Assembly (NCBI GenBank): GCA_938085105.1
Contig: CALKGK010000043.1
Coordinates: 18,949-82,948 of the forward strand
Direction of reading: 5' to 3'
From: an uncultured Flavobacteriales bacterium
Lineage (GTDB): Bacteria > Bacteroidota > Bacteroidia > Flavobacteriales_D > Sanyastnellaceae
DNA length: 64,000 nt
Positions 40,730 to 51,253 of the stretch are shown here, one piece after another. The notes below the pieces were generated by a model. The model saw only the letters and a list, made by a program, of their open reading frames with translations, searched no databases and was not told where the DNA came from. Within the stretch, counting starts at the first letter, position 1; each line of letters begins with the position of its first letter. The position numbers and the translations under genes were made by a program.

Positions 40730-41335
40730 ATGAATAACTTGATTCCTTTGATACAGGAAGAAGCATTGAGCGCAGAACGTCGTGAACGCCTTCTTCCTTT
40801 GGTGGACTATTTGCGCCAGAAAAGCAGCGAGAATGCTCCCATTCAATTGAATTTCATCTGCACGCACAACTCGAGAAGGAGTCAGTTTGCGCAATTTTGG
40901 AGTGCGGTATGGGCCAATCATTTTGGCATTGCAGTGAACAGTTTTTCCGGCGGAACGGAAGCTACTGCGGTCTATTCTGACGTACTGAACAGCTTGGAGC
41001 GTTTTGGCTTTAAGGTGAACAGATCATCAGGCAGTAATCCAAAACACATGGTGCACCTTTCGAACTCAAATTCGATCGAGCTTTTTTCAAAGGTGTTTGA
41101 CGATCCCAGCAATCCAACACAGGATTTTGCCGCGGTCATGACCTGTGCAGATGCCGACGAAAACTGTCCGTTCATCCCCGGATGTGAGGCGCGGATCGCC
41201 CTCAACTATTCCGATCCAAAAGCATTTGATAACACCCCCATTCAATCCAGCATGTATGATGCCCGATCTTGGCAAATCGCCACGGAATTGTACCATGTTT
41301 ATCAAACCCTTCAAAACGAACACCATGTCGGATAA
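40730..41335 (+). CDS. ArsC-like low-molecular-weight phosphatase
   Basis: A 201-residue protein of the LMW tyrosine phosphatase/thioredoxin-linked arsenate reductase fold. The P-loop is present (FICTHNSRRSQFAQ, C-x5-R-S), and further conserved Cys occur in MTCADADENCPFIPGCEAR. The Cys pair expected in the classic ArsC resolving loop is not obvious, so it may use the DENCPF...GC cysteines. It is expected to reduce arsenate to arsenite for the ACR3 pump. Eleven bases overlap with the downstream gene. Confidence 0.85.
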   Translation: MNNLIPLIQEEALSAERRERLLPLVDYLRQKSSENAPIQLNFICTHNSRRSQFAQFWSAVWANHFGIAVNSFSGGTEATAVYSDVLNSLERFGFKVNRSSGSNPKHMVHLSNSNSIELFSKVFDDPSNPTQDFAAVMTCADADENCPFIPGCEARIALNYSDPKAFDNTPIQSSMYDARSWQIATELYHVYQTLQNEHHVG

Positions 41336-42389
41336 AGACCAAACACAAAGCATCGGATTTTTTGAAAAGTACCTCACACTTTGGGTACTCTTATGCATTG
41401 GCGTAGGCATTGCCTTGGGTTCTTCTTTGGGCGATGACATCAAAGTGCTCAGCGATTGGAACATTGGAACCGTGAACCTGCCCGTAGCCATCTTGGTGTG
41501 GTTGATGATTTATCCCATGATGGTACAAATCGACTTCTCCTCCCTCAAGTACGTTTCTCGAAATTGGAAAGGCCTTGCCCTTACCGTAGCGGTGAATTGG
41601 TTGATCAAACCCTTCACCATGGCCCTGTTTGCTGCCCTGTTTTTTTACGGCATTTACAAGTCCATAATCAGTCCTGAAGACGCCGAGCACTACCTTGCCG
41701 GAGCCATTCTCCTTGGAGCCGCGCCGTGCACCGCCATGGTTTTTGTGTGGTCTTACTTAACGAAGGGCGACGCCAATTATACCTTGGTTCAAGTATCGGT
41801 AAACGACCTCATTCTGCTCATCGCCTTTGTGCCCATCGTGGGCTTTCTCTTTTCCGTGTTTGGAATTGACTTTGTGAATGAAGCTGGCGAAAGCATCGGC
41901 ATCCCCTATAAAACACTCCTTACCTCCGTGATTGTCTTTGTGGTGATTCCCTTGTTCACAGGCTACCTTTCGAACCGCTTCCTCATCCGCACGAAAGGAC
42001 AAGCTTGGTTTGAGAACGTCTTTTTGAAGCGATTAAAGCCCATTTCCATATTCGCCCTGCTCTCTACCCTCGTGTTGATTTTTGCTTTTCAGGGTGAAAC
42101 GATCTTGGCTAATCCACTTGCGATTGTGCTGATCTCCATCCCCTTGGCGCTTCAAACTTATTTTATCTTTTTCGTTTCGTGGTTTGCTGGAAGATGGATG
42201 AAACTCCCACATCAAATCTGCGCACCTGCCGCCATGATTGGAGCCAGCAATTTCTTTGAACTTGCGGTTGCCGTGGCTATTGCCCTTTTCGGACTCAATT
42301 CTGGAGCTTCTCTAGCCACCGTTGTTGGGGTGTTGATTGAAGTTCCCGTGATGTTGTCTTTGGTGAGTTTGGCGAATCGTTGGCGCTGA
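41325..42389 (+). CDS. arsB: ACR3-family arsenite efflux permease
   Basis: A 354-residue membrane permease with ten helices that exports As(III). Characteristic segments are LVWLMIYPMMVQIDF near residue 55, the conserved Cys in GAAPCTAMVFVWSY and the C-terminal GASNFFELAVAVAI. ATG 41325 was chosen, within the arsC-like gene end; an alternative ATG at 41295 is less likely. The gene lies last in the arsR-DUF6428-arsC operon. Confidence 0.93.
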   Translation: MSDKDQTQSIGFFEKYLTLWVLLCIGVGIALGSSLGDDIKVLSDWNIGTVNLPVAILVWLMIYPMMVQIDFSSLKYVSRNWKGLALTVAVNWLIKPFTMALFAALFFYGIYKSIISPEDAEHYLAGAILLGAAPCTAMVFVWSYLTKGDANYTLVQVSVNDLILLIAFVPIVGFLFSVFGIDFVNEAGESIGIPYKTLLTSVIVFVVIPLFTGYLSNRFLIRTKGQAWFENVFLKRLKPISIFALLSTLVLIFAFQGETILANPLAIVLISIPLALQTYFIFFVSWFAGRWMKLPHQICAPAAMIGASNFFELAVAVAIALFGLNSGASLATVVGVLIEVPVMLSLVSLANRWR

Positions 42390-42402
42390 GTTGGGATTAT
42401 AG

Positions 42403-42419
42403 GGTGAAGTAGCTTCACC
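42403..42419 (+). terminator. Hairpin after the arsenite permease gene
   Basis: GGTGAAG pairs with CTTCACC around a three-base loop, but no T run follows, so it is a weak terminator or an mRNA 3' end. Confidence 0.4.
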
Positions 42420-42518
42420 TCAAAAACTAATGATTTTTATTCACCCTCGACAAAACCTCCTGCGTTTTGTTTTTATTCAATAACTTAAGGGATTGATAAT
42501 GGTCTCAATCTGAATCAC

Positions 42519-42788
42519 ATGAAAAAAATCATTTCCCTTAGCTCTTTCGTCTTTTTGTTATCACTCGGATTCATTTCTTGTTCGAAGAATGAGGACAAAC
42601 CAAGCCAGGTTCAAAACACCATCCAAGAAGACTCGAACCCCTCCAGCTTTTCGTACAGCATTCCTAAAGACATGCTTGAACAAGAGTTACTGTCTTTGAT
42701 GGAAGCCAAAGAAGAAGGCGAAAGTAAGTACCAAAAAGCCAGCATTCAGGCCTTGGGTGATCATTATGAGATTACGATTTCTGAATAA
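42519..42788 (+). CDS. Small lipoprotein of unknown function
   Basis: An 89-residue lipoprotein with lipobox LGFISC and a Ser/Lys-rich linker. The mature part has about 65 residues, Glu-rich with a QALGDHYEITISE tail. No family recognised. It starts 129 bases after the arsenite permease gene and may be independent. Confidence 0.65.
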   Translation: MKKIISLSSFVFLLSLGFISCSKNEDKPSQVQNTIQEDSNPSSFSYSIPKDMLEQELLSLMEAKEEGESKYQKASIQALGDHYEITISE

Positions 42789-42837
42789 GCTGTGTTCCAT
42801 TCATCTGAAGTCAGGATTTCCTATGGAGAAGTCTTAC

Positions 42838-42894
42838 TGCTTCGAACCCGCGATCCTCCTGATGAAAAATCGGGATGCACTATCCAGCTGAGCA
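42838..42894 (-). pseudogene. Decayed tRNA remnant
   Basis: On the minus strand this stretch keeps a tRNA D-arm (GCTCAGCTGGATAGTGC), an anticodon-like hairpin with a TTTTTCA loop (stem CCCGA/TCAGG, one mismatch) and the GCGGGTTCGAA of a T-arm. The T-stem 3' strand and the acceptor stem are destroyed. The loop would fit tRNA-Lys(TTT) or -Glu(TTC). It lies directly downstream of the intact tRNA-Arg and shares a 14-base D-arm identity with it. Confidence 0.6.
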
Positions 42895-42904
42895 AATTGT
42901 TGGA

Positions 42905-42935
42905 CAAAAAAAAGAGGCCTCGTATTGAGACCTCC
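42905..42935 (-). terminator. Terminator of tRNA-Arg
   Basis: GAGGTCTC pairs with GAGGCCTC-type sequence around AATAC on the minus strand, followed by eight Ts. Confidence 0.8.
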
Positions 42936-42940
42936 TTGAG

Positions 42941-43014
42941 TGATCGCGCCAGGATTCGAACCTGGGACCGTCTGCTTAGAAGGCAGATGCTCTATCCAGC
43001 TGAGCTACGCGACC
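42941..43014 (-). tRNA. tRNA-Arg (anticodon TCT)
   Basis: A complete 74-base cloverleaf: acceptor GGTCGCG/CGCGATC (with one G-T pair), D-arm GCTC/GAGC, anticodon stem TCTGC/GCAGA enclosing CTTCTAA with TCT, and T-arm CCAGG-TTCGAAT-CCTGG, discriminator A. CCA is not encoded. Confidence 0.95.
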
Positions 43015-43031
43015 AAATTAAATTTGGAGTG

Positions 43032-43039
43032 CAAAAATA
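43032..43039 (-). promoter_or_regulatory. -7 element of tRNA-Arg
   Basis: TATTTTTG matches TAnnTTTG exactly and lies 17 bases upstream of the tRNA 5' end. Confidence 0.7.
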
Positions 43040-43195
43040 CAAATTCGTGCTAATTTGCCTAAGTAATTCTCACAAATCAATCGCTCAACTCGAAAAATCA
43101 CCCTTTCCTCGAGGATAATCTATACTCTAAGCCTTTGGAAAAGAAAGTCTTTGCTCAAAGTGAAAAAAAGATTTCGTAGCTTAAATCTGATTAAC

Positions 43196-43203
43196 TACTT
43201 TTG
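43196..43203 (+). promoter_or_regulatory. -7 element of tRNA-Ser
   Basis: TACTTTTG is an exact consensus match 19 bases before the tRNA. A TTTC about 20 bases further upstream could be the -33 box. Confidence 0.7.
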
Positions 43204-43222
43204 TCGTCCACAAAATCACAGA

Positions 43223-43305
43223 GGAGAGGTGGCAGAGTGGTAATGCAGCAGCCTGCTAAGCTGTGCACCGTTTAGGTGTCCTGGGTTCGAATCCCAGTCT
43301 CTCCG
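43223..43305 (+). tRNA. tRNA-Ser (anticodon GCT)
   Basis: An 83-base class II tRNA: acceptor GGAGAGG/TCTCTCC, anticodon loop CTGCTAA with GCT, a variable arm (GTGCACCGTTTAGGTGT region) and T-arm CTGGG-TTCGAAT-CCCAG, discriminator G. Confidence 0.95.
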
Positions 43306-43311
43306 CTCCTT

Positions 43312-43348
43312 AAAAAGTCCTTTTGCATTTGCAGAAGGGCTTTTTGTT
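43312..43348 (+). terminator. Terminator of tRNA-Ser
   Basis: AAAAAGTCCTT pairs with AAGGGCTTTTT over an inner TGC/GCA pairing, followed by GTTT. Confidence 0.8.
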
Positions 43349-43432
43349 TGGTGGAAACACTTTAAAATCAGGACTTAAGAGAAAAAGGGTGAATTTTTCT
43401 TCTGAAACACGTTCAATTTAAATCAAAACCAC

Positions 43433-43440
43433 TAAATTTG
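43433..43440 (+). promoter_or_regulatory. -7 element of tRNA-Pro
   Basis: TAAATTTG is an exact consensus match, 39 bases before the mature 5' end, implying a 5' leader of about 33 bases. Confidence 0.65.
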
Positions 43441-43479
43441 CCGTCCAATTCAGAACAAGGAAACTTGTTTTGATAATGG

Positions 43480-43554
43480 CGGGGCGTAGCGCAGTCCGGT
43501 TAGCGCACCTGGTTTGGGACCAGGGGGTCGCAGGTTCGAATCCTGCCGCCCCGA
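43480..43554 (+). tRNA. tRNA-Pro (anticodon TGG)
   Basis: A 75-base tRNA: acceptor CGGGGCG/CGCCCCG, anticodon stem CCTGG/CCAGG around TTTGGGA with TGG, T-arm GCAGG-TTCGAAT-CCTGC, discriminator A. Confidence 0.95.
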
Positions 43555-43560
43555 CGAAAC

Positions 43561-43600
43561 AAAAAAAGCTGATTCATTGAGAGTCAGCTTTTTTTGTTTT
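43561..43600 (+). terminator. Terminator of tRNA-Pro
   Basis: AAAAAAAGCTGA pairs with TCAGCTTTTTTT, with a long T run after the stem. Confidence 0.85.
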
Positions 43601-43873
43601 TAAACCTTTTCATTATTCGCGGTGGGGTGCATTGCGCTGAGCCCATCCCTTCTTTGGAAAATGAAACCTAAGACTTGAACTTCAAAACGTTCTAAGCAGG
43701 ATCTCTGCCACAGCGGTCACTCCAAGAGACATCATACCGATGTAGTGACTGTTTTCTGCTCATTATCATAGACTCATAACTAAAAAAAGCTCTTCAAAGC
43801 TTGAATACTCCCCACCACACCCTCTCTTTATTATTGTAGGATGGCGACTTACACATATGTATCCGAGAAAAAC
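43601..43873. other. Intergenic stretch with nested hairpin before sensor cluster
   Basis: No ORF of note. At 43716-43749 a bulged stem of eleven pairs is present: GTCACT (43716-43721) with AGTGAC (43744-43749), and ACATC with GATGT around ATACC, with a seven-base bulge between the arms. It lies about 155 bases upstream of the receiver gene and could be an RNA structure or protein site. Confidence 0.45.
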
Positions 43874-43881
43874 TATCTTTG
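43874..43881 (+). promoter_or_regulatory. -7 element of the sensor cluster
   Basis: TATCTTTG is an exact match, ending 23 bases before the GTG start at 43905. It likely drives all four genes of the cluster. Confidence 0.65.
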
Positions 43882-43904
43882 CTTTACCTAACTAATTTTA
43901 TACT

Positions 43905-44324
43905 GTGCAAGTAGTCTATTGTATTGATGATAACGAGATGATCGTAAAGATGCTCTCTTATCAATTGGAGAAATTTTTCGACCCGACATGTTTTGTCGTA
44001 GAAGGGCATTCCTGTCCTTTGAAGGCCATTGAATCTATCAGAAAAAATTATTCAGACGGCTTCCCGCCCATTGTTTGCATCGTTGATTTTCAAATGCCAA
44101 ACATGAATGGTGATGAATTCATCAAAGTCATTCGTTCCGAGTTCCCAATGAGTAAAGCATTGATGTTATCTGGTGAATCCAATGCCTTCGCTGTTTCTGA
44201 TTTAGTAGAAGAAAATTTGCTTGATCACTACATGAGTAAGCCTTGGGATGAAAGAGACCTTTTTACAAAAGTCAAAAGTTGTTTACCTCTTAATTTACAA
44301 ATGAAGACCAATGACCCTAGCTAG
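43905..44324 (+). CDS. Stand-alone receiver-domain response regulator
   Basis: A 139-residue receiver with no output domain. The acidic pair D8-D9, phospho-acceptor Asp in CIVDFQMPNMNG (about 61), the S of MLSGES and the Lys of MSKPWDE are all present; the KPW motif is typical of receivers paired with large sensor kinases. It starts with GTG. It overlaps the porin gene by 14 bases and is first in a four-gene cluster whose last gene encodes a histidine kinase, its likely phosphodonor. Confidence 0.9.
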   Translation: MQVVYCIDDNEMIVKMLSYQLEKFFDPTCFVVEGHSCPLKAIESIRKNYSDGFPPIVCIVDFQMPNMNGDEFIKVIRSEFPMSKALMLSGESNAFAVSDLVEENLLDHYMSKPWDERDLFTKVKSCLPLNLQMKTNDPS

Positions 44325-45372
44325 ACTACTCACTTTCCTGGCGCTGGTTTCTGTAAGTGTAATTGCTTCAGCTCAAAAAAAAGTTCAAATTAATGGTTTC
44401 GGACACATTGAAAGTCATTTAGAATACTTCAATGAAGAAGAAACGATTAACAGTTACTTTTCACTGGGTGAGCAAGACCTTTTTATTAACGCCATCATCA
44501 ATAAGCGATTAAGTTTCTTGGGAGAAACTGTTGTGAAATTTGATTCTGAAACAGCAGCTAATTTTGCCCCCAGTATTGAGCGAGCCCGTTTTAAGTACGA
44601 GTACCGCAATAATCATTCGATACTTCTAGGGAAAATGCACACCCCAGTTAATTATTGGAACGATGTTTACCACCATGGAAGGTTGTTCTTTCCTACCATC
44701 GATCGTCCGCAGATGTTTTCCTACTTTTTACCCGTACACACATTAGGAATTCGAGCTCAAGGACAAAATTTGGGTAAATTGAATTTCGGCTACGATGTAC
44801 AAGTTGGAAATGGAATCGAGTCAAGTGACGTGTTTGATGCTGGTGCGAATTATTCCTTTCTCGCTGCCATGCACATCAAACCCCAGTATGGAACGCGCAT
44901 TGGGGCCTCGTATTATTACGACCACCTGAGCACCAATTCTTACGGTGTTCATGCTCACTCGCATGGTTCACACAACACTGAATACCGGGGTCCGGTTGAC
45001 TTCCAAATGATTGCCGTAAGCATTGCAAGGTTTGAGAAAAAAATTGAGGTGTTAAGTGAAACTGCATTGAACATTACCAGAACTGACACCCTCGGCTATG
45101 CCAATTCGTTCAATACCTATCTTTATGTAGGGTACAACTTCAAAGAAAATCACACACCATACCTCATGGGGGACCTTCTTCACATTGGGGAGAATGATCT
45201 TCATTCCGACCACGCTTCAAAAATAAAATTTTCATTAGGCTACAAGTATGAGTTCGATCCTTTTGCTAACATCAAATTTCAAGTAGAACAATATCTCAGT
45301 TCGCCTTGGAATCATCATGGAGATTACACTCCTAAGACAGAGTTCAAAATTCAGTTTTCCTATGGCATCTAA
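44311..45372 (+). CDS. Porin-like outer-membrane beta-barrel
   Basis: A 353-residue exported protein (signal peptide ending ASAQ) made of alternating amphipathic strands with a C-terminal FKIQFSYGI, typical of a barrel. I recognise no specific family; it resembles phosphate-selective (OprO/P) or general porins of similar size. A His-rich surface loop (HAHSHGSHN, about residues 213-221) could bind metal. It sits between the receiver and the PstS-like gene, overlapping both, so it is probably the outer-membrane part of one system. Confidence 0.75.
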   Translation: MTLARLLTFLALVSVSVIASAQKKVQINGFGHIESHLEYFNEEETINSYFSLGEQDLFINAIINKRLSFLGETVVKFDSETAANFAPSIERARFKYEYRNNHSILLGKMHTPVNYWNDVYHHGRLFFPTIDRPQMFSYFLPVHTLGIRAQGQNLGKLNFGYDVQVGNGIESSDVFDAGANYSFLAAMHIKPQYGTRIGASYYYDHLSTNSYGVHAHSHGSHNTEYRGPVDFQMIAVSIARFEKKIEVLSETALNITRTDTLGYANSFNTYLYVGYNFKENHTPYLMGDLLHIGENDLHSDHASKIKFSLGYKYEFDPFANIKFQVEQYLSSPWNHHGDYTPKTEFKIQFSYGI

Positions 45373-45802
45373 TATAATCAAGTACTTGATCGTGATGTTG
45401 GTGGTGAGCGTCAGCGCACATAGCTTCGGCCAAAAGGAGTGGGACTCAATTAAGGTTATTGGCAATAACATTGGAGAGAAATCAATGTCGCAAAAATCAC
45501 TTATTGAGGTATTTAGGGGACAAAAGAATTATTGGGAAACCAATGAAGGTGTGTTACTTATTTTGCCTTCAGATAAACATCCTGGTGCAGGAATAGCATC
45601 AGCCATACTGTACGACATGAGCATCTCTGAAATGCAAAAATTCTGGCTGGCAATGGTATTTCAAGGTAGAACGAATCCGCCCGTTTTTGAGCTTAACAAC
45701 GCAGATATTCTAACAATAGTTTCGGAAACACCCGGTGCAATTGGCATCTTGATCAACTATCAAGGACAAATTCCACCCGAACTTTTGATCAACATTCAAT
45801 AG
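45362..45802 (+). CDS. Short PstS-like periplasmic protein
   Basis: A 146-residue exported protein (signal peptide MASNIIKYLIVMLVVSVSAHSFG). The mature part reads like the second lobe of a phosphate-type (PBP_like) binding protein: SQKSLIEVFRGQKNYW, FWLAMVFQGRTNPP and TPGAIGILI. It is half the length of PstS, so it cannot form a full two-lobe transporter subunit; short forms like this are known beside sensor kinases. ATG 45362 overlaps the porin gene end by eleven bases; the kinase gene starts at the next base after its stop. Confidence 0.8.
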   Translation: MASNIIKYLIVMLVVSVSAHSFGQKEWDSIKVIGNNIGEKSMSQKSLIEVFRGQKNYWETNEGVLLILPSDKHPGAGIASAILYDMSISEMQKFWLAMVFQGRTNPPVFELNNADILTIVSETPGAIGILINYQGQIPPELLINIQ

Positions 45803-48049
45803 ATGAGGATTCTCAGATCACTTGCTTTTAAAATTTGGTTGATATTCACCATTGTAGGCTTAAGTTTATCTGTCCCCATGGCAGTGCATTACAATAAAGT
45901 GCATTTTGATTTGCTAAAAAATCATTCCCAAGAATCACTGTATTCAAATGCCCTAATTACCAAACAAGCCATTTCCATCGCCATAGAAAATTCCGACCTT
46001 CAGGGACTGAAAAGGCAGTTAGATGAGATTAAAAAAAGCAGCGAATTCTCCTACATTGCACTCATCGAGGGAGAGGGCAGAGAAAGGCACATCTTTGCAT
46101 GCTATCCCGATTCACTACAAGCCTACGTATTCGTTGAAAATGAAAATTACATTTCAATAGAAGAACCTCTAGACTCAAAACTGCTCAAAGGTAGTATCAT
46201 CATGGCCTCCTCACTTGATGAAGACCTAAAAACACTCTCCCAAATCAACAGACCGGTAATCTATCTCAGTACCATCGCGATAATAAGTTCTATTATTCTT
46301 TTTGGCTTCTCTTTGTTCTTCATCAGCAGGCCCATTTCTAGGGCTGTTTTGTTCGCTAAAAACTTAGAAGACAAGAAATATGACCATGGTTTTAAACGGA
46401 AACAAGGAAAAGATGAAATATCTACCTTAAACAACGCTTTAATTTCTTTGAGCTCAAATTTAGAAAATCTCGAAAAGCAAAACGCCCAGCTTCTGCACAA
46501 CTTGGAAGATGAAGTAGAAATTAAAACAGCTCAACTTAGGACACAAAATGAGTTAAACAAGGCACTTTTTGAAATGTCAAAATCATTCATCAATGCCAAT
46601 ACTGAAAACTACCGTGAAATTGTTGCAGCCGGACTCCAAAGCCTCATCGGTTTTTTCAACTTGGATTTGGTCATGTTTTGCGACCTGTACGAAGAGTCTG
46701 TTGTGGTGAGTCACTCCAACAGGATTAAGCTCATCAACACAGAAATCAACAAATTACATAAAACACTTTTAGAAGCAGAAAACTTACATCCCGTATCTAT
46801 TCCAGAAAATCTCGGTGGAGTATTGGACAGCAATCAAAACCTTTTTCTAATTTCAGGAATGATTGGTGTAAAAGACAAACGCCGTATTCTCATTTTCAGT
46901 TGCGCACACCAAGAAAAGAAAAAGTTGATTGAAATCGGGCAATCATTTCTTGCGATATCAACCATCATTAGCAACCTAGAACAAAGAGTAAACCACGAAG
47001 CTGAGCTGCGCTTATTAAACAGCAATTTGGAATCAAAAGTAATTGAAAACACGAGGGTAAATCTTGACCTTTCAAACAACATTGTGGCTCAAGACAAACT
47101 GGCAACGATTGGTGAAGTAGCTGCTGGAGTAGCGCACGACTTGAACTCCCCCTTGGGTGCCATTAAAGCTTCGAATACTAACCTCTACTCATTGCTCAGA
47201 CAGATATTCAAAAATCCGAATGAAATCGACTGGGAGCATGGCCAACTCGCTTTCAAAATATACGACAAAGGACAAAGGGAACTATTTACTAGCGGAATAA
47301 AACTAATTCAAAGTGGTCGAGAATTTGAAACGCAATTAAGTTCAAAAATCCAAGACGAAACCCTGCTTTCAGAAATCGCTATGACCTTCGTCAAATGCGG
47401 GATTCATAAAGATGAGACGGACCTTATCAACCAAGTAATAGAGCTCGACAGACCGCTTCATTTCTTAAAAAGTCTTCGGCAAATCCAACTCATTGGGATG
47501 TTCCAGCAGAGCATTGAAGAGTCAATTGCTCGCGCTAGTGAAGTTGTTTCGAATCTAACCCTATTTGTTCGAGAAGATCTGACCCAAGAAAAGTCCAATA
47601 TTGAATTAAAATCCAGTATTGACTCTGTAGCTAAAGTCTTTAGGTATCGCACCAAGAACCAAATTCAATTCGTCAATAACATATCGAACGAGGTTCTGAT
47701 TTATGGTATTGAAGTAAAATTACTGCAATTGTGGTCTAACATCATCAAGAATGCCATTGATGCCCTGGACGAAAGTGACCGTCCAGACAAGTACATTATG
47801 GTGAGCAGCAGCACTGATGATTCAGCTTTAACCGTGTGCATAGAAAACAACGGCCCCATGATTGATGAAGAACACCAAAAAAAGATTCTGAAGAAATTTT
47901 TCACCACAAAAGAGAAAAAGAAAGGTACTGGTCTCGGTATGAGTATTGTGAAAAACGTGGTCGATGAACATCGAGGGATACTCTCATTTACCTCAACTGA
48001 AGAAAAAACGATATTCAGCATTCGTTTTCCATTGAACGAAGCCAATTGA
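45803..48049 (+). CDS. Large membrane sensor histidine kinase with DHp insert
   Basis: A 748-residue kinase: TM1 (about 11-29), a periplasmic sensor region (30-150), TM2 (about 152-174), a HAMP-like segment, a coiled coil to about 250, a GAF-like domain (about 255-395), a second coil, then DHp helix 1 with H445 (AAGVAHDLNSPLGA) and a HATPase domain with N650 (NIIKNAIDAL) and GTGLGMSIV. Helix 2 (SIARASEVVSNLTLFVR) begins only near 570, so about 90 residues (470-560) are inserted between the helices. Adjacency suggests that the PstS-like protein and porin feed its input. Confidence 0.9.
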   Translation: MRILRSLAFKIWLIFTIVGLSLSVPMAVHYNKVHFDLLKNHSQESLYSNALITKQAISIAIENSDLQGLKRQLDEIKKSSEFSYIALIEGEGRERHIFACYPDSLQAYVFVENENYISIEEPLDSKLLKGSIIMASSLDEDLKTLSQINRPVIYLSTIAIISSIILFGFSLFFISRPISRAVLFAKNLEDKKYDHGFKRKQGKDEISTLNNALISLSSNLENLEKQNAQLLHNLEDEVEIKTAQLRTQNELNKALFEMSKSFINANTENYREIVAAGLQSLIGFFNLDLVMFCDLYEESVVVSHSNRIKLINTEINKLHKTLLEAENLHPVSIPENLGGVLDSNQNLFLISGMIGVKDKRRILIFSCAHQEKKKLIEIGQSFLAISTIISNLEQRVNHEAELRLLNSNLESKVIENTRVNLDLSNNIVAQDKLATIGEVAAGVAHDLNSPLGAIKASNTNLYSLLRQIFKNPNEIDWEHGQLAFKIYDKGQRELFTSGIKLIQSGREFETQLSSKIQDETLLSEIAMTFVKCGIHKDETDLINQVIELDRPLHFLKSLRQIQLIGMFQQSIEESIARASEVVSNLTLFVREDLTQEKSNIELKSSIDSVAKVFRYRTKNQIQFVNNISNEVLIYGIEVKLLQLWSNIIKNAIDALDESDRPDKYIMVSSSTDDSALTVCIENNGPMIDEEHQKKILKKFFTTKEKKKGTGLGMSIVKNVVDEHRGILSFTSTEEKTIFSIRFPLNEAN

Positions 48050-48104
48050 TCTGTATCGTAAATCACCGATAGTGCTTTTCGAAGCGGACCAGCAATTTGT
48101 TTCC

Positions 48105-48112
48105 TACCTTCG
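48105..48112 (+). promoter_or_regulatory. -7-like element of SDR gene
   Basis: TACCTTCG (one change from the consensus) ends eight bases before the ATG at 48121, giving a leader of only a few bases. Confidence 0.5.
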
Positions 48113-48120
48113 CCCCGAAT

Positions 48121-49179
48121 ATGACAGATGGAAAAAAAGTACTGGTTACTGGAGCTACAGGATATGTGGCTTCCTGGATTGTAAAACGACTCTTGGAAGA
48201 AGGGCACCACGTTCATGCTACTGCTCGCAACATCAGCCAGAAAAATAAAACTGCCCATCTACAGTCTTTGGCGGATTCATCTCCGGGAGAGATTACTTTT
48301 TTTGAGGCAGATCTTTTAATTGATGGTGACTTTGGAACAGCCATGAAAGACTGTGAAATTGTGTATCACACCGCTTCTCCGTTCATTACCGTGGTGAAGG
48401 ATGCTCAAAAGGACCTCATCGACCCGGCCTTAATTGGCACCCGCAATGTGCTGCACCAAGCAAGTGCTTGTCCGACGGTCAAAAGAGTCGTTCTCACTAG
48501 CTCTTGCGCTGCGATGTACACGGATGCTATTGACTGTAAGAAGGGTCCGAACGGTGAACTTGACGAAAGTATTTGGAACGATACGGCATCCATCAACTAT
48601 CAACCCTACAATTACTCCAAAACGCTGGCAGAACAGGCCGCTTGGGAAATTGCCGATGCTCAAAACCAATGGAAACTCGTTTGCATCAACCCAAGTTTGA
48701 TCTTTGGCCCTGCAATGGCTCCAGAATTCAGCAAATCGGAGAGTTTGGCGATCTTCAAACAACTGGCAGATGGAAGCCTAAGTACCGGCGTTCCTCGAGT
48801 TGGCATTGGGATTACCGATGTGCGCGATGTGGCCGAGGCTCATGTTCAGGCCGGCTTTAGAGCGGAGGCCAACGGTAGGAATATTGTTTCAGGACACAAT
48901 ACCAACATGCTCGAAATGGCGCGTCTATTGCACGATAAATTCGGCAAAGAGTACAAAGTTCCACACAGCCTCGCCCCCAAATGGTTGCTCTACCTCGTAG
49001 GTCCTATGGTGAACAAAGTCATTACCTGGAAATTCGTAAAAAACAATGTGGACGTTGAATGGAAGGCAAACTCCAGCAAAGCGCAAAAAGAACTGGGTGT
49101 AACTTACCGACCTTTGGAGCAAACTTTAACCGACACCTTCGAACAAGTCATTGAACAAGGCATTGTGAAATCAAGATAG
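48121..49179 (+). CDS. NAD-dependent epimerase/dehydratase (dihydroflavonol reductase-like)
   Basis: A 352-residue extended SDR. GATGYVASW (N-terminal Gly-rich motif), the active-site SS/C region (RVVLTSSCAAMY) and YNYSKTLAEQAAW (YxxxK) are clear. It resembles dihydroflavonol-4-reductase and cinnamoyl-CoA reductase-like SDRs that reduce carbonyl compounds with NADPH. ATG 48121 was chosen because the -7-like box is inside the longer frame from 48097. Substrate unknown. Confidence 0.88.
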   Translation: MTDGKKVLVTGATGYVASWIVKRLLEEGHHVHATARNISQKNKTAHLQSLADSSPGEITFFEADLLIDGDFGTAMKDCEIVYHTASPFITVVKDAQKDLIDPALIGTRNVLHQASACPTVKRVVLTSSCAAMYTDAIDCKKGPNGELDESIWNDTASINYQPYNYSKTLAEQAAWEIADAQNQWKLVCINPSLIFGPAMAPEFSKSESLAIFKQLADGSLSTGVPRVGIGITDVRDVAEAHVQAGFRAEANGRNIVSGHNTNMLEMARLLHDKFGKEYKVPHSLAPKWLLYLVGPMVNKVITWKFVKNNVDVEWKANSSKAQKELGVTYRPLEQTLTDTFEQVIEQGIVKSR

Positions 49180-49201
49180 GCGGAGCTCCTTCTTCCATTC
49201 G

Positions 49202-51253
49202 CTAGTCGGGATAAGCCACCCGTGAATGATAAATGTTCATGAGTTTTTGCTTGAAGATATCTTTGATGATGCTGATCTCTTGGAGCGTAATGCTCGCGTT
49301 ATCGAATTGCTCCATCTTCATCAAATGTGCAATGATGCTGTTGATTAAACCTTCAATGCGCTCCTCAGAATATTCACCCAAGGAACGGGAAGCCGCTTCT
49401 ACCCCGTCTGCCATCATCAAAATGGCGGTTTCTTTGGAATAGGGTTTCGGACCCGGGTATCGGAAGTCTTCCTCATTCACTTCGTCCTCCCCCATTTTCT
49501 TCAGTGCATTGCGATAGAAATACTCCGTACGGGTCGTTCCGTGATGTGTTCGGATAAAATCGATGATTTCTTCTGGGAGTTTGGCTTTCTTCGCCATTTC
49601 AATTCCAATGAGCACATGGTCAATGATGATGCGAGCACTTTCTTCTTCGGGAAGCTCATCGTGAGGATTCATGCCGTGCTGATTTTCGGTAAAAAAGCCC
49701 GGATTCTCCATTTTTCCAATGTCGTGATACAAAGCACCGGCCCTCACCAAGAGTACATTTCCACCAACTGCTCTGGTTGCTTCTTCCGCCAGGTTTGCGA
49801 CTTGTAAGGTGTGCTGAAAAGTTCCTGGCGCCTTTTCATTCAAGTTTCTCAAGAGCGCATGATTGGTATCGCTAATCTCCATCAAACGAATTTCAGAGAT
49901 AAAGCCAAAGCTCTTTTCGAACATGTAAATCATGGGATAGGCCAAAAGACTCAAAGCTGCATTTCCAGCAAACCATGCGAAAATCCCCCAATGCATTTGC
50001 TCCCAACTTCCCTCTTGCACCATGTTGATGCCCACATAGGTGAAACTGTAACTGGCAAAAATCACAATGGCTGAAGCGAAAAATTGCGAACGACGATAGA
50101 GATTGGTCATCCCAAATTGCAAGAGTATCCCAGCAAAAATTTGGAGAAAGACAAATTCAAAAGGATCGGGAACGATGAAACTGATCATGAACACCGCTAT
50201 CACATGAAGCATGAGCGCCGTTCGCGTATCGTAAAAGGTTCTTACAATGATGGGAAGGATGCATAAAGGACTCAAATAAATGTGCAAACCTTCTACTCCA
50301 GCGATGGCTTTAACCATGACGACCATCAAAATGATCAGCAACAGAACAAAGCTCACTTTTCCGGCTTGAACAAGACTTTGGGGTTGAAAAAGCCTCAAAA
50401 TGATGCTGATCGAAACCAAAGAGAGCAAGATGAGGATTGCTTGTCCAAAATTCAACCACCACGACGATGCACTGCTTTGTAAATCTCCCCCAACAGCCAT
50501 TTTCAAACTTTCCAAAGAACGCAATTCAGAAGCACCAATCACCTGTCCTTTCCGCACAAGCACCTCCCCTTTCACCACTTCTCGGATGGGCTGTTTGAGC
50601 TGATTCATCTCGGCGGAAACCAACAATTCGCTTTGATCTTCAGAATACCGGTAATTGGGCAGCATGGCTTTTTCAAAACTTTCCAAGAACCAAGCCTTGC
50701 TTTCCCCTGCTGACAATCCCTCTTCTAAACTGTTCAAGGCCAATGAAAGGTCCATGATTCTTCCCCTCTTCTTGCTTTTCAGCACCCCGTTTTTGGACAG
50801 CGCAATGCTCTGATCGGGATCTTGGTCTTCAGGACGGAATTGAAGGATCTCCTTTTGATACAACTTCCGAAGACGATCCAAGCCCAAGTCCGATAAACTA
50901 TCTACCTGCCTTTCCGAGTAAGCTTCCCTTCCCAAAAACAAAGACCTGAACTCAGTCTCAAAGCTACTCGAAACCTGTTTTAGAACATCTCCTTCTACTT
51001 CCGTATACACTGGGATTTGCTGACCTTGTAGTCGGGATTTCGCCTGTTCCAATTCCTCTTCTGTACGATGAATCTCGAAAGAATAGGGCGCGAGGACATC
51101 TTCATGTTCCCAAACTGCATCCAGTTTTGCCTCAAAACGGAAAGCCGATTCTTTTGGAAAAAGATACAGCAGCACCACAAAGCTGAGCACAAAAAGGAAG
51201 ATGATGTAGATCAAATTGTGCCTATCACGAAGGTATTCGAGCCATTTTTTCAT
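49202..51253 (-). CDS. PgpH-type 7TM HD phosphohydrolase
   Basis: A 683-residue protein of the 7TMR-HDED/HD family, the type of the c-di-AMP phosphodiesterase PgpH. It has a large extracytoplasmic N-terminal region (about 40-270), seven membrane segments (about 270-460) and a cytoplasmic HD domain with YHDIGKMENPGFFTENQ and RTHHGTTRTEYF. Activity on c-di-AMP is expected from the family. A TACCTTCG box lies seven bases before its start, immediately after the stop of the SLC13 gene. Confidence 0.9.
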   Translation of the reverse strand: MKKWLEYLRDRHNLIYIIFLFVLSFVVLLYLFPKESAFRFEAKLDAVWEHEDVLAPYSFEIHRTEEELEQAKSRLQGQQIPVYTEVEGDVLKQVSSSFETEFRSLFLGREAYSERQVDSLSDLGLDRLRKLYQKEILQFRPEDQDPDQSIALSKNGVLKSKKRGRIMDLSLALNSLEEGLSAGESKAWFLESFEKAMLPNYRYSEDQSELLVSAEMNQLKQPIREVVKGEVLVRKGQVIGASELRSLESLKMAVGGDLQSSASSWWLNFGQAILILLSLVSISIILRLFQPQSLVQAGKVSFVLLLIILMVVMVKAIAGVEGLHIYLSPLCILPIIVRTFYDTRTALMLHVIAVFMISFIVPDPFEFVFLQIFAGILLQFGMTNLYRRSQFFASAIVIFASYSFTYVGINMVQEGSWEQMHWGIFAWFAGNAALSLLAYPMIYMFEKSFGFISEIRLMEISDTNHALLRNLNEKAPGTFQHTLQVANLAEEATRAVGGNVLLVRAGALYHDIGKMENPGFFTENQHGMNPHDELPEEESARIIIDHVLIGIEMAKKAKLPEEIIDFIRTHHGTTRTEYFYRNALKKMGEDEVNEEDFRYPGPKPYSKETAILMMADGVEAASRSLGEYSEERIEGLINSIIAHLMKMEQFDNASITLQEISIIKDIFKQKLMNIYHSRVAYPD

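Follow-up and report, generated by a model that had tools for sequence, protein, structure and literature searches.

What do four tightly packed genes, encoding a receiver, a barrel-like protein, a short PstS-like protein and a sensor kinase, do together? They lie on the + strand at positions 43905–48049 of a 64,000-nucleotide stretch of DNA, here called the window, from an uncultured Flavobacteriales bacterium whose genome assembly is 3.17 Mb long and 99% complete. A preliminary description of this DNA had proposed that they form one envelope-to-cytoplasm sensory unit. Both a census of related loci and a periplasmic sensor domain common to transducers of different output support that proposal, and it is very probable that the four genes are one such unit. 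The complete reading that we prefer, for which the case is about evenly balanced, is a trans-envelope relay from the barrel to the short PstS-like protein (hereafter half-PstS), then to the kinase and the receiver. Searches of an open paper library, outside which most subscription papers lie, found no description of such a set. The features, taken from the list of open reading frames (ORFs) and from profile searches, are as follows.

43874..43881, + strand: possible Bacteroidota-type −7 promoter element, TATCTTTG (pattern count; weak)
43905..44324, + strand: single-domain receiver, 139 amino acids, GTG start (PF00072, E 2.1e-13; acceptor Asp61; KPWD at 112)
44311..45372, + strand: predicted outer-membrane barrel, 353 amino acids (signal-peptide-like N-terminus; iterated profile)
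45362..45802, + strand: half-PstS, 146 amino acids, ATG at 45362 (signal-peptide-like N-terminus; PstS lobe 2 fold only)
45803..48049, + strand: sensor histidine kinase, 748 amino acids (HATPase, E 6.3e-19; two membrane stretches; His445)
45878..46276, + strand: Cache/CHASE8-like periplasmic domain of the kinase, residues 26–158 with membrane edges (alignment A3; low-confidence model)

Are these genes found together elsewhere? The census covered fetched loci (L numbers), whose neighbouring genes were typed. It took in all but two half-PstS hits (the weak ones in genomes G495 and G218), together with some barrel hits and with six loci on plasmids. Half-PstS is present in 26 of 200 related genomes, including the genome under study, and in 29 of 395 genomes drawn from the phylum (profile search, E ≤ 0.001). 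In 63 of 69 half-PstS loci, the gene immediately before half-PstS, in the same orientation, encodes a barrel belonging to a single iterated profile family; these are 25 of the 26 loci of the family and order set (the remaining one is at a contig edge), 34 of the 37 of the phylum set and 4 of the 6 on plasmids. At one further plasmid locus, the barrel is downstream of half-PstS. A gene for a kinase, a chemoreceptor or a SpoIIE protein is found within three genes on either side in 61 of the 69 loci, and in 46 it comes immediately after half-PstS in the same orientation; as a baseline, the 3.17-Mb genome has 39 HATPase places and no chemoreceptor. Thus, the neighbourhood check that the preliminary description had called for shows that the genes are not rarely together. 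Of the 26 family-set loci, 22 have a kinase gene immediately after half-PstS in the same orientation, and three of the remaining four are at a contig end; in related loci the junction between these two genes is frequently a short overlap. The census loci are not independent, as they include close relatives and loci of the same genome, and near-duplicates (L036 and L037 from one genome, L053 and L056, and others) were kept separate. L045 is unlabelled in the census, its half-PstS reading frame being listed as part of a fused ORF, and has a barrel, half-PstS and a kinase. L111 entered through a barrel hit, as did L110, L142 and L143, where no half-PstS is labelled; the barrels of L142 (6166–7395) and L143 (5782–7008) adjoin a gene for 146–148 amino acids that the half-PstS profile did not label.

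In the family and order set, the transducer, present at 23 loci, is always a kinase, with receivers before it, after it or fused to it. The phylum set contains chemoreceptors (L107, L112, L115, L117, L127, L134), a HAMP-SpoIIE protein (L122), hybrid kinases (L111, L131, L141), a hybrid kinase with Hpt (L138) and a HisKA_2 kinase (L128). The output is therefore exchanged while the core of barrel and half-PstS stays. Similar sets in other phyla had been mentioned at the outset, and the core indeed occurs outside the window's phylum, on plasmids of Pseudoalteromonas and Saccharobesus (the six plasmid loci). In three of the six records, Pseudoalteromonas plasmids carry the barrel and half-PstS beside an opposite-strand chemoreceptor, and these loci show that the core crosses phyla. 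L119, L123 and L129 carry a barrel and half-PstS pair with no transducer within three genes. In a tree of half-PstS, labels set by hand, some of them without Pfam support, gave two changes for sensor type versus five for output type. When a script assigned the labels from the nearest transducer, the counts were six versus seven, with shuffled means of 15.5 and 14.0, and none of 300 shuffles reached either observed value. Tracking of sensor over output was seen only with the hand labels and was gone with the script labels, and nothing is drawn from it.

The kinase has H, N and G boxes and the receiver has an acceptor Asp, as in two-component systems. The profile matches of the kinase are to HATPase and to part of HisKA, the latter limited to residues 437–457. 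Some 110 residues (about 460–565; window about 47180–47498) lie between the H-box helix, with His445, and the probable second dimerisation helix. The periplasmic sensor domain is common to 35 transducers of differing output (alignment A3, for which 11 of 45 collected neighbours were dropped by eye, two of them as the wrong neighbour). Its fold model has a predicted local distance difference test score (pLDDT) of 64, which is low confidence, and also matches LuxQ.

What is half-PstS? Its structure model matches lobe 2 of PstS, and lobe 1 is absent from the predicted fold. A K-W-L..V-F-Q-G stretch is conserved in the family. R135, S139, G140 and T141, which we take to be the lobe 2 phosphate contacts of PstS (the residues were checked in the K-12 sequence), align with P, H, P and G in the window protein, as judged by sequence alignment only. 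Among 67 aligned members (L132 and frames outside 120–230 amino acids, from L057 and L133, were left out), the four residues are kept in 4, 31, 1 and 12, respectively, and no member keeps all four. PstC had no match in the whole 99%-complete genome, and a control search recovered it from all 14 genomes tried. The genome's only PF12849 match was rejected as a true PstS, its sequence looking like that of a LysR/OxyR-type regulator. The genome also encodes a Na/Pi cotransporter. Given that the phosphate contacts are absent and no PstC is detectable, a role of half-PstS in phosphate transport is unlikely, and since the protein has lobe 2 alone and lacks the contacts, phosphate as the signal is unsupported. 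Phosphate transport or sensing was thus set aside as the lead reading. The initial label of a half-length phosphate-type binding protein keeps its PstS fold, for lobe 2 only, and loses the phosphate contacts. In PstS, two lobes enclose the anion and the protein works with the PstSCAB transporter, whereas half-PstS has neither lobe 1 nor the contacts and its genome has no match to PstC. All six plasmid relatives are annotated as phosphate ATP-binding cassette (ABC) transporter substrate-binding proteins, and on this evidence the phosphate-transport annotation of the short protein's relatives is probably wrong.

The predicted barrel of the window has no Pfam hit, the Porin_4 and Porin_O_P models included, and a search of solved structures with the barrel profile gave nothing. 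The iterated profile nevertheless joins it to relatives that do match Porin_4 or Porin_O_P above the cut-off; Porin_O_P itself is matched by some related barrels, one of them above the cut-off.

Is there a known system of similar design? YfiBNR of Pseudomonas (YfiB, YfiN/TpbB and YfiR) has the same three parts: one at the outer membrane, a small periplasmic protein and an inner-membrane receptor. Published work describes YfiN being pulled down by YfiR, a requirement of YfiB for YfiR at the outer membrane, and a modular YfiR–YfiN receptor core found with other outputs, including kinases (PMC3375315). The published fold of YfiR is similar to a single domain of an ABC binding protein (PMC4655355), as half-PstS models as one lobe of PstS. 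A search for the sensor domain through the phylum found it at 63 places, spread over 40 of 395 genomes. Within 3 kb of the 28 strong hits (E < 1e-13), half-PstS was found at 21 and a YfiR-like protein at none; within 3 kb of the 35 weaker hits, YfiR/HmsC-like PF13689 was found at 10 and detected half-PstS at none. Thus, weaker relatives of this sensor domain adjoin YfiR-like proteins. The PF13689 search covered 390 genomes. All three such loci that were scanned (L173, L174 and L176) have the order TonB-dependent receptor, YfiR-like protein, transducer, and therefore two different sets of parts fill the same slots. They share their order and a related sensor domain with the window, while both of their non-transducer parts come from other families. 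The YfiR/HmsC-like loci, at 2454–6494 of L173, 3336–8638 of L174 and 2621–8008 of L176, carry a kinase or a chemoreceptor. The genome under study has one YfiR/HmsC-like gene elsewhere (G000:C77:2090-2524, E 7.2e-25). YfiBNR also differs from the present set in three respects: its periplasmic regulator belongs to PF13689 rather than being a PstS lobe; YfiB is an OmpA-like lipoprotein, whereas a barrel is predicted here and none of the four window proteins has an OmpA-family hit; and its output is GGDEF, here replaced by a kinase (HATPase, partial HisKA) and a receiver. By membership, the set is neither PstS nor YfiBNR, and it plausibly works like YfiBNR.

We suggest the following relay. The barrel would be the outer-membrane end and would set the amount of free half-PstS. 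Half-PstS would be the messenger, binding the periplasmic domain of the kinase and holding the kinase in one state, which by analogy with YfiR would most likely be the repressed one. On meeting its signal, the barrel may bind or release half-PstS. If the barrel draws half-PstS off, the kinase would leave the held state, again by analogy, and would then change the phosphorylation of the output-less receiver at Asp61. That half-PstS contacts the sensor domain of the kinase is somewhat probable; that it acts through YfiR-like titration with repression, as YfiBNR would suggest, is a tentative proposal.

Several observations weigh against this relay. CHASE8 is matched weakly by 7 of the 35 transducers and not by the window kinase, and the transducers of L130, L136, L137 and L148 have a helical input instead, 4HB_MCP. 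Of the 28 strong matches to the sensor domain, 16 are sequences from which the profile was itself built. Half-PstS lies within 3 kb in five of the remaining 12 and within 5 kb in seven (two of these found only with a wider half-PstS profile, which was run on 12 sensor-domain loci), so that five of the 12 are without it. At the sequence level nothing connects half-PstS with YfiR-like proteins (hhalign probability 0.3%, with three YfiR-like sequences), and descent of half-PstS from the latter was rejected on that ground; nor is PF13689 one of the 19 families that 34 half-PstS members touched. No transducer lies within three genes in 8 of the 69 half-PstS loci. Three of these are at a contig end, and the other five (L109, L119, L123, L129 and L149) have sequence on both sides. 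The barrel label is partly circular, its starting profile having been built from genes beside half-PstS: that profile labelled 34 of 65 upstream genes and the iterated one 63 of 65, with 9 of the 72 matches of the latter lying away from the slot upstream of half-PstS. The association weakens when one starts from the barrel: half-PstS was detected in just 8 of 18 genomes that gave a barrel match, the rest being mostly weak matches; for strong matches (E < 1e-15), it was found in six of seven genomes, the exception being G522. The fetched barrel loci L110, L142 and L143 are without half-PstS.

The main rival to the relay is an indirect ligand receptor of the LuxP–LuxQ, TorT–TorS or PstS–CtpL type, in which the barrel would admit a solute, the half-cleft of half-PstS would bind it and the loaded form would activate the kinase. 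The same pairing of a periplasmic binding-protein fold with a transmembrane kinase or chemoreceptor is seen in those systems, and a published account describes binding-protein partners for sensor kinases and for the CtpL chemoreceptor (PMC6321045). The match of the low-confidence sensor model to LuxQ and the several barrels of the set that touch porin families are also consistent with it. The binding proteins of LuxP–LuxQ, TorT–TorS and PstS–CtpL are two-lobed, and their gene sets are not known to include a dedicated outer-membrane barrel. Since half-PstS has one lobe only, a closed cleft is not expected, and the replacement of the four contact residues, never all kept in the aligned members, argues in the same direction; we regard this receptor as rather unlikely. 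It is also possible to suppose that half-PstS serves the barrel in assembly, or as a plug or scaffold, and that the kinase monitors the barrel's state on its own, without half-PstS. The barrel and half-PstS are indeed the tightest pair in the census, and at five loci with sequence on both sides they have no transducer nearby. However, the kinase directly follows half-PstS in most family loci, often with a short overlap, and we know of no assembly factor of this fold, so that this arrangement seems improbable.

A sensor of phosphate or another oxyanion, reporting on phosphate outside the cell in a species that lacks Pst, would fit the PstS fold of half-PstS, the Porin_O_P matches of related barrels and a genome with a Na/Pi cotransporter and no PstC match. 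The phosphate contacts are absent, no phosphate genes were seen among the neighbours read, and the window barrel itself has no Porin_O_P hit; such a sensor is very unlikely. Finally, a kinase and a receiver alone make a normal two-component pair, beside which two unrelated envelope genes might lie by chance. The combination of barrel, half-PstS and transducer is met repeatedly, both in different families of the phylum and in Pseudoalteromonas, and because the closest named relative found (locus L002) has the same gene order and the core recurs so widely, the cluster exceeds chance, and a fortuitous arrangement is hardly credible.

If the relay is true, it would offer a general means by which a barrel in the outer membrane is coupled to kinases, chemotaxis or phosphatases, and the use of binding-protein lobes as periplasmic messengers could be tested in cultivable hosts such as Pseudoalteromonas. 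More speculatively, though not without some prospect of being right, binding-protein lobes may have been recruited at least twice, from PstS and as YfiR, as diffusible messengers that take a signal from a barrel in the outer membrane to a single family of inner-membrane receptors. The half-PstS branch would then be a widespread unnamed trans-envelope signalling class whose receptors swap kinase, chemotaxis and phosphatase outputs freely.

The layout of the locus is largely as first described. The receiver and barrel genes overlap by 14 bases, the barrel and half-PstS genes overlap by 11 and the junction of half-PstS and kinase is zero-base, in agreement with the ORF coordinates. The tRNA neighbours were also confirmed, as tRNA-Arg (−), tRNA-Ser (+) and tRNA-Pro (+) at 42940–43555 upstream of the cluster, and no phosphate transporter was seen nearby among the ORFs at 41145–51253, the part read gene by gene. 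The proposed −7 element is present as a single TANNTTTG sequence, TATCTTTG, 23 bases ahead of the receiver start, the call resting on what we take to be the Bacteroidota −7 consensus. The motif occurs 44 times in the 64 kb, counting both strands, and alone it is therefore weak evidence for a promoter. The four genes are AT-rich, as had been noted, with a guanine plus cytosine (GC) content of 0.38–0.41, compared with a mean of 0.456 (standard deviation 0.024) for the window's 30 long ORFs (at least 250 amino acids), among which the kinase and barrel genes are lowest. From this composition, acquisition had been proposed. The low GC stands, but recent gain, for which no empty site was sought, is unsupported and was set aside because L002 also carries this low-GC unit, flanked by the same genes. 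A DNA search of a phage collection with the cluster gave no match.

L002 is from a metagenome-assembled genome of Flavobacteriales of the same genus, with an identical order of the four genes. Identity between the window and L002 is 90% for the receiver, 82% for the barrel, 66% for half-PstS and 84% for the kinase; half-PstS, with the lowest identity, is thus the fastest changing of the four proteins. The tRNA block is inverted between the two species, being Arg (−), Ser (+), Pro (+) in the window and Pro (−), Ser (−), Arg (+) in L002 (5645–6334).

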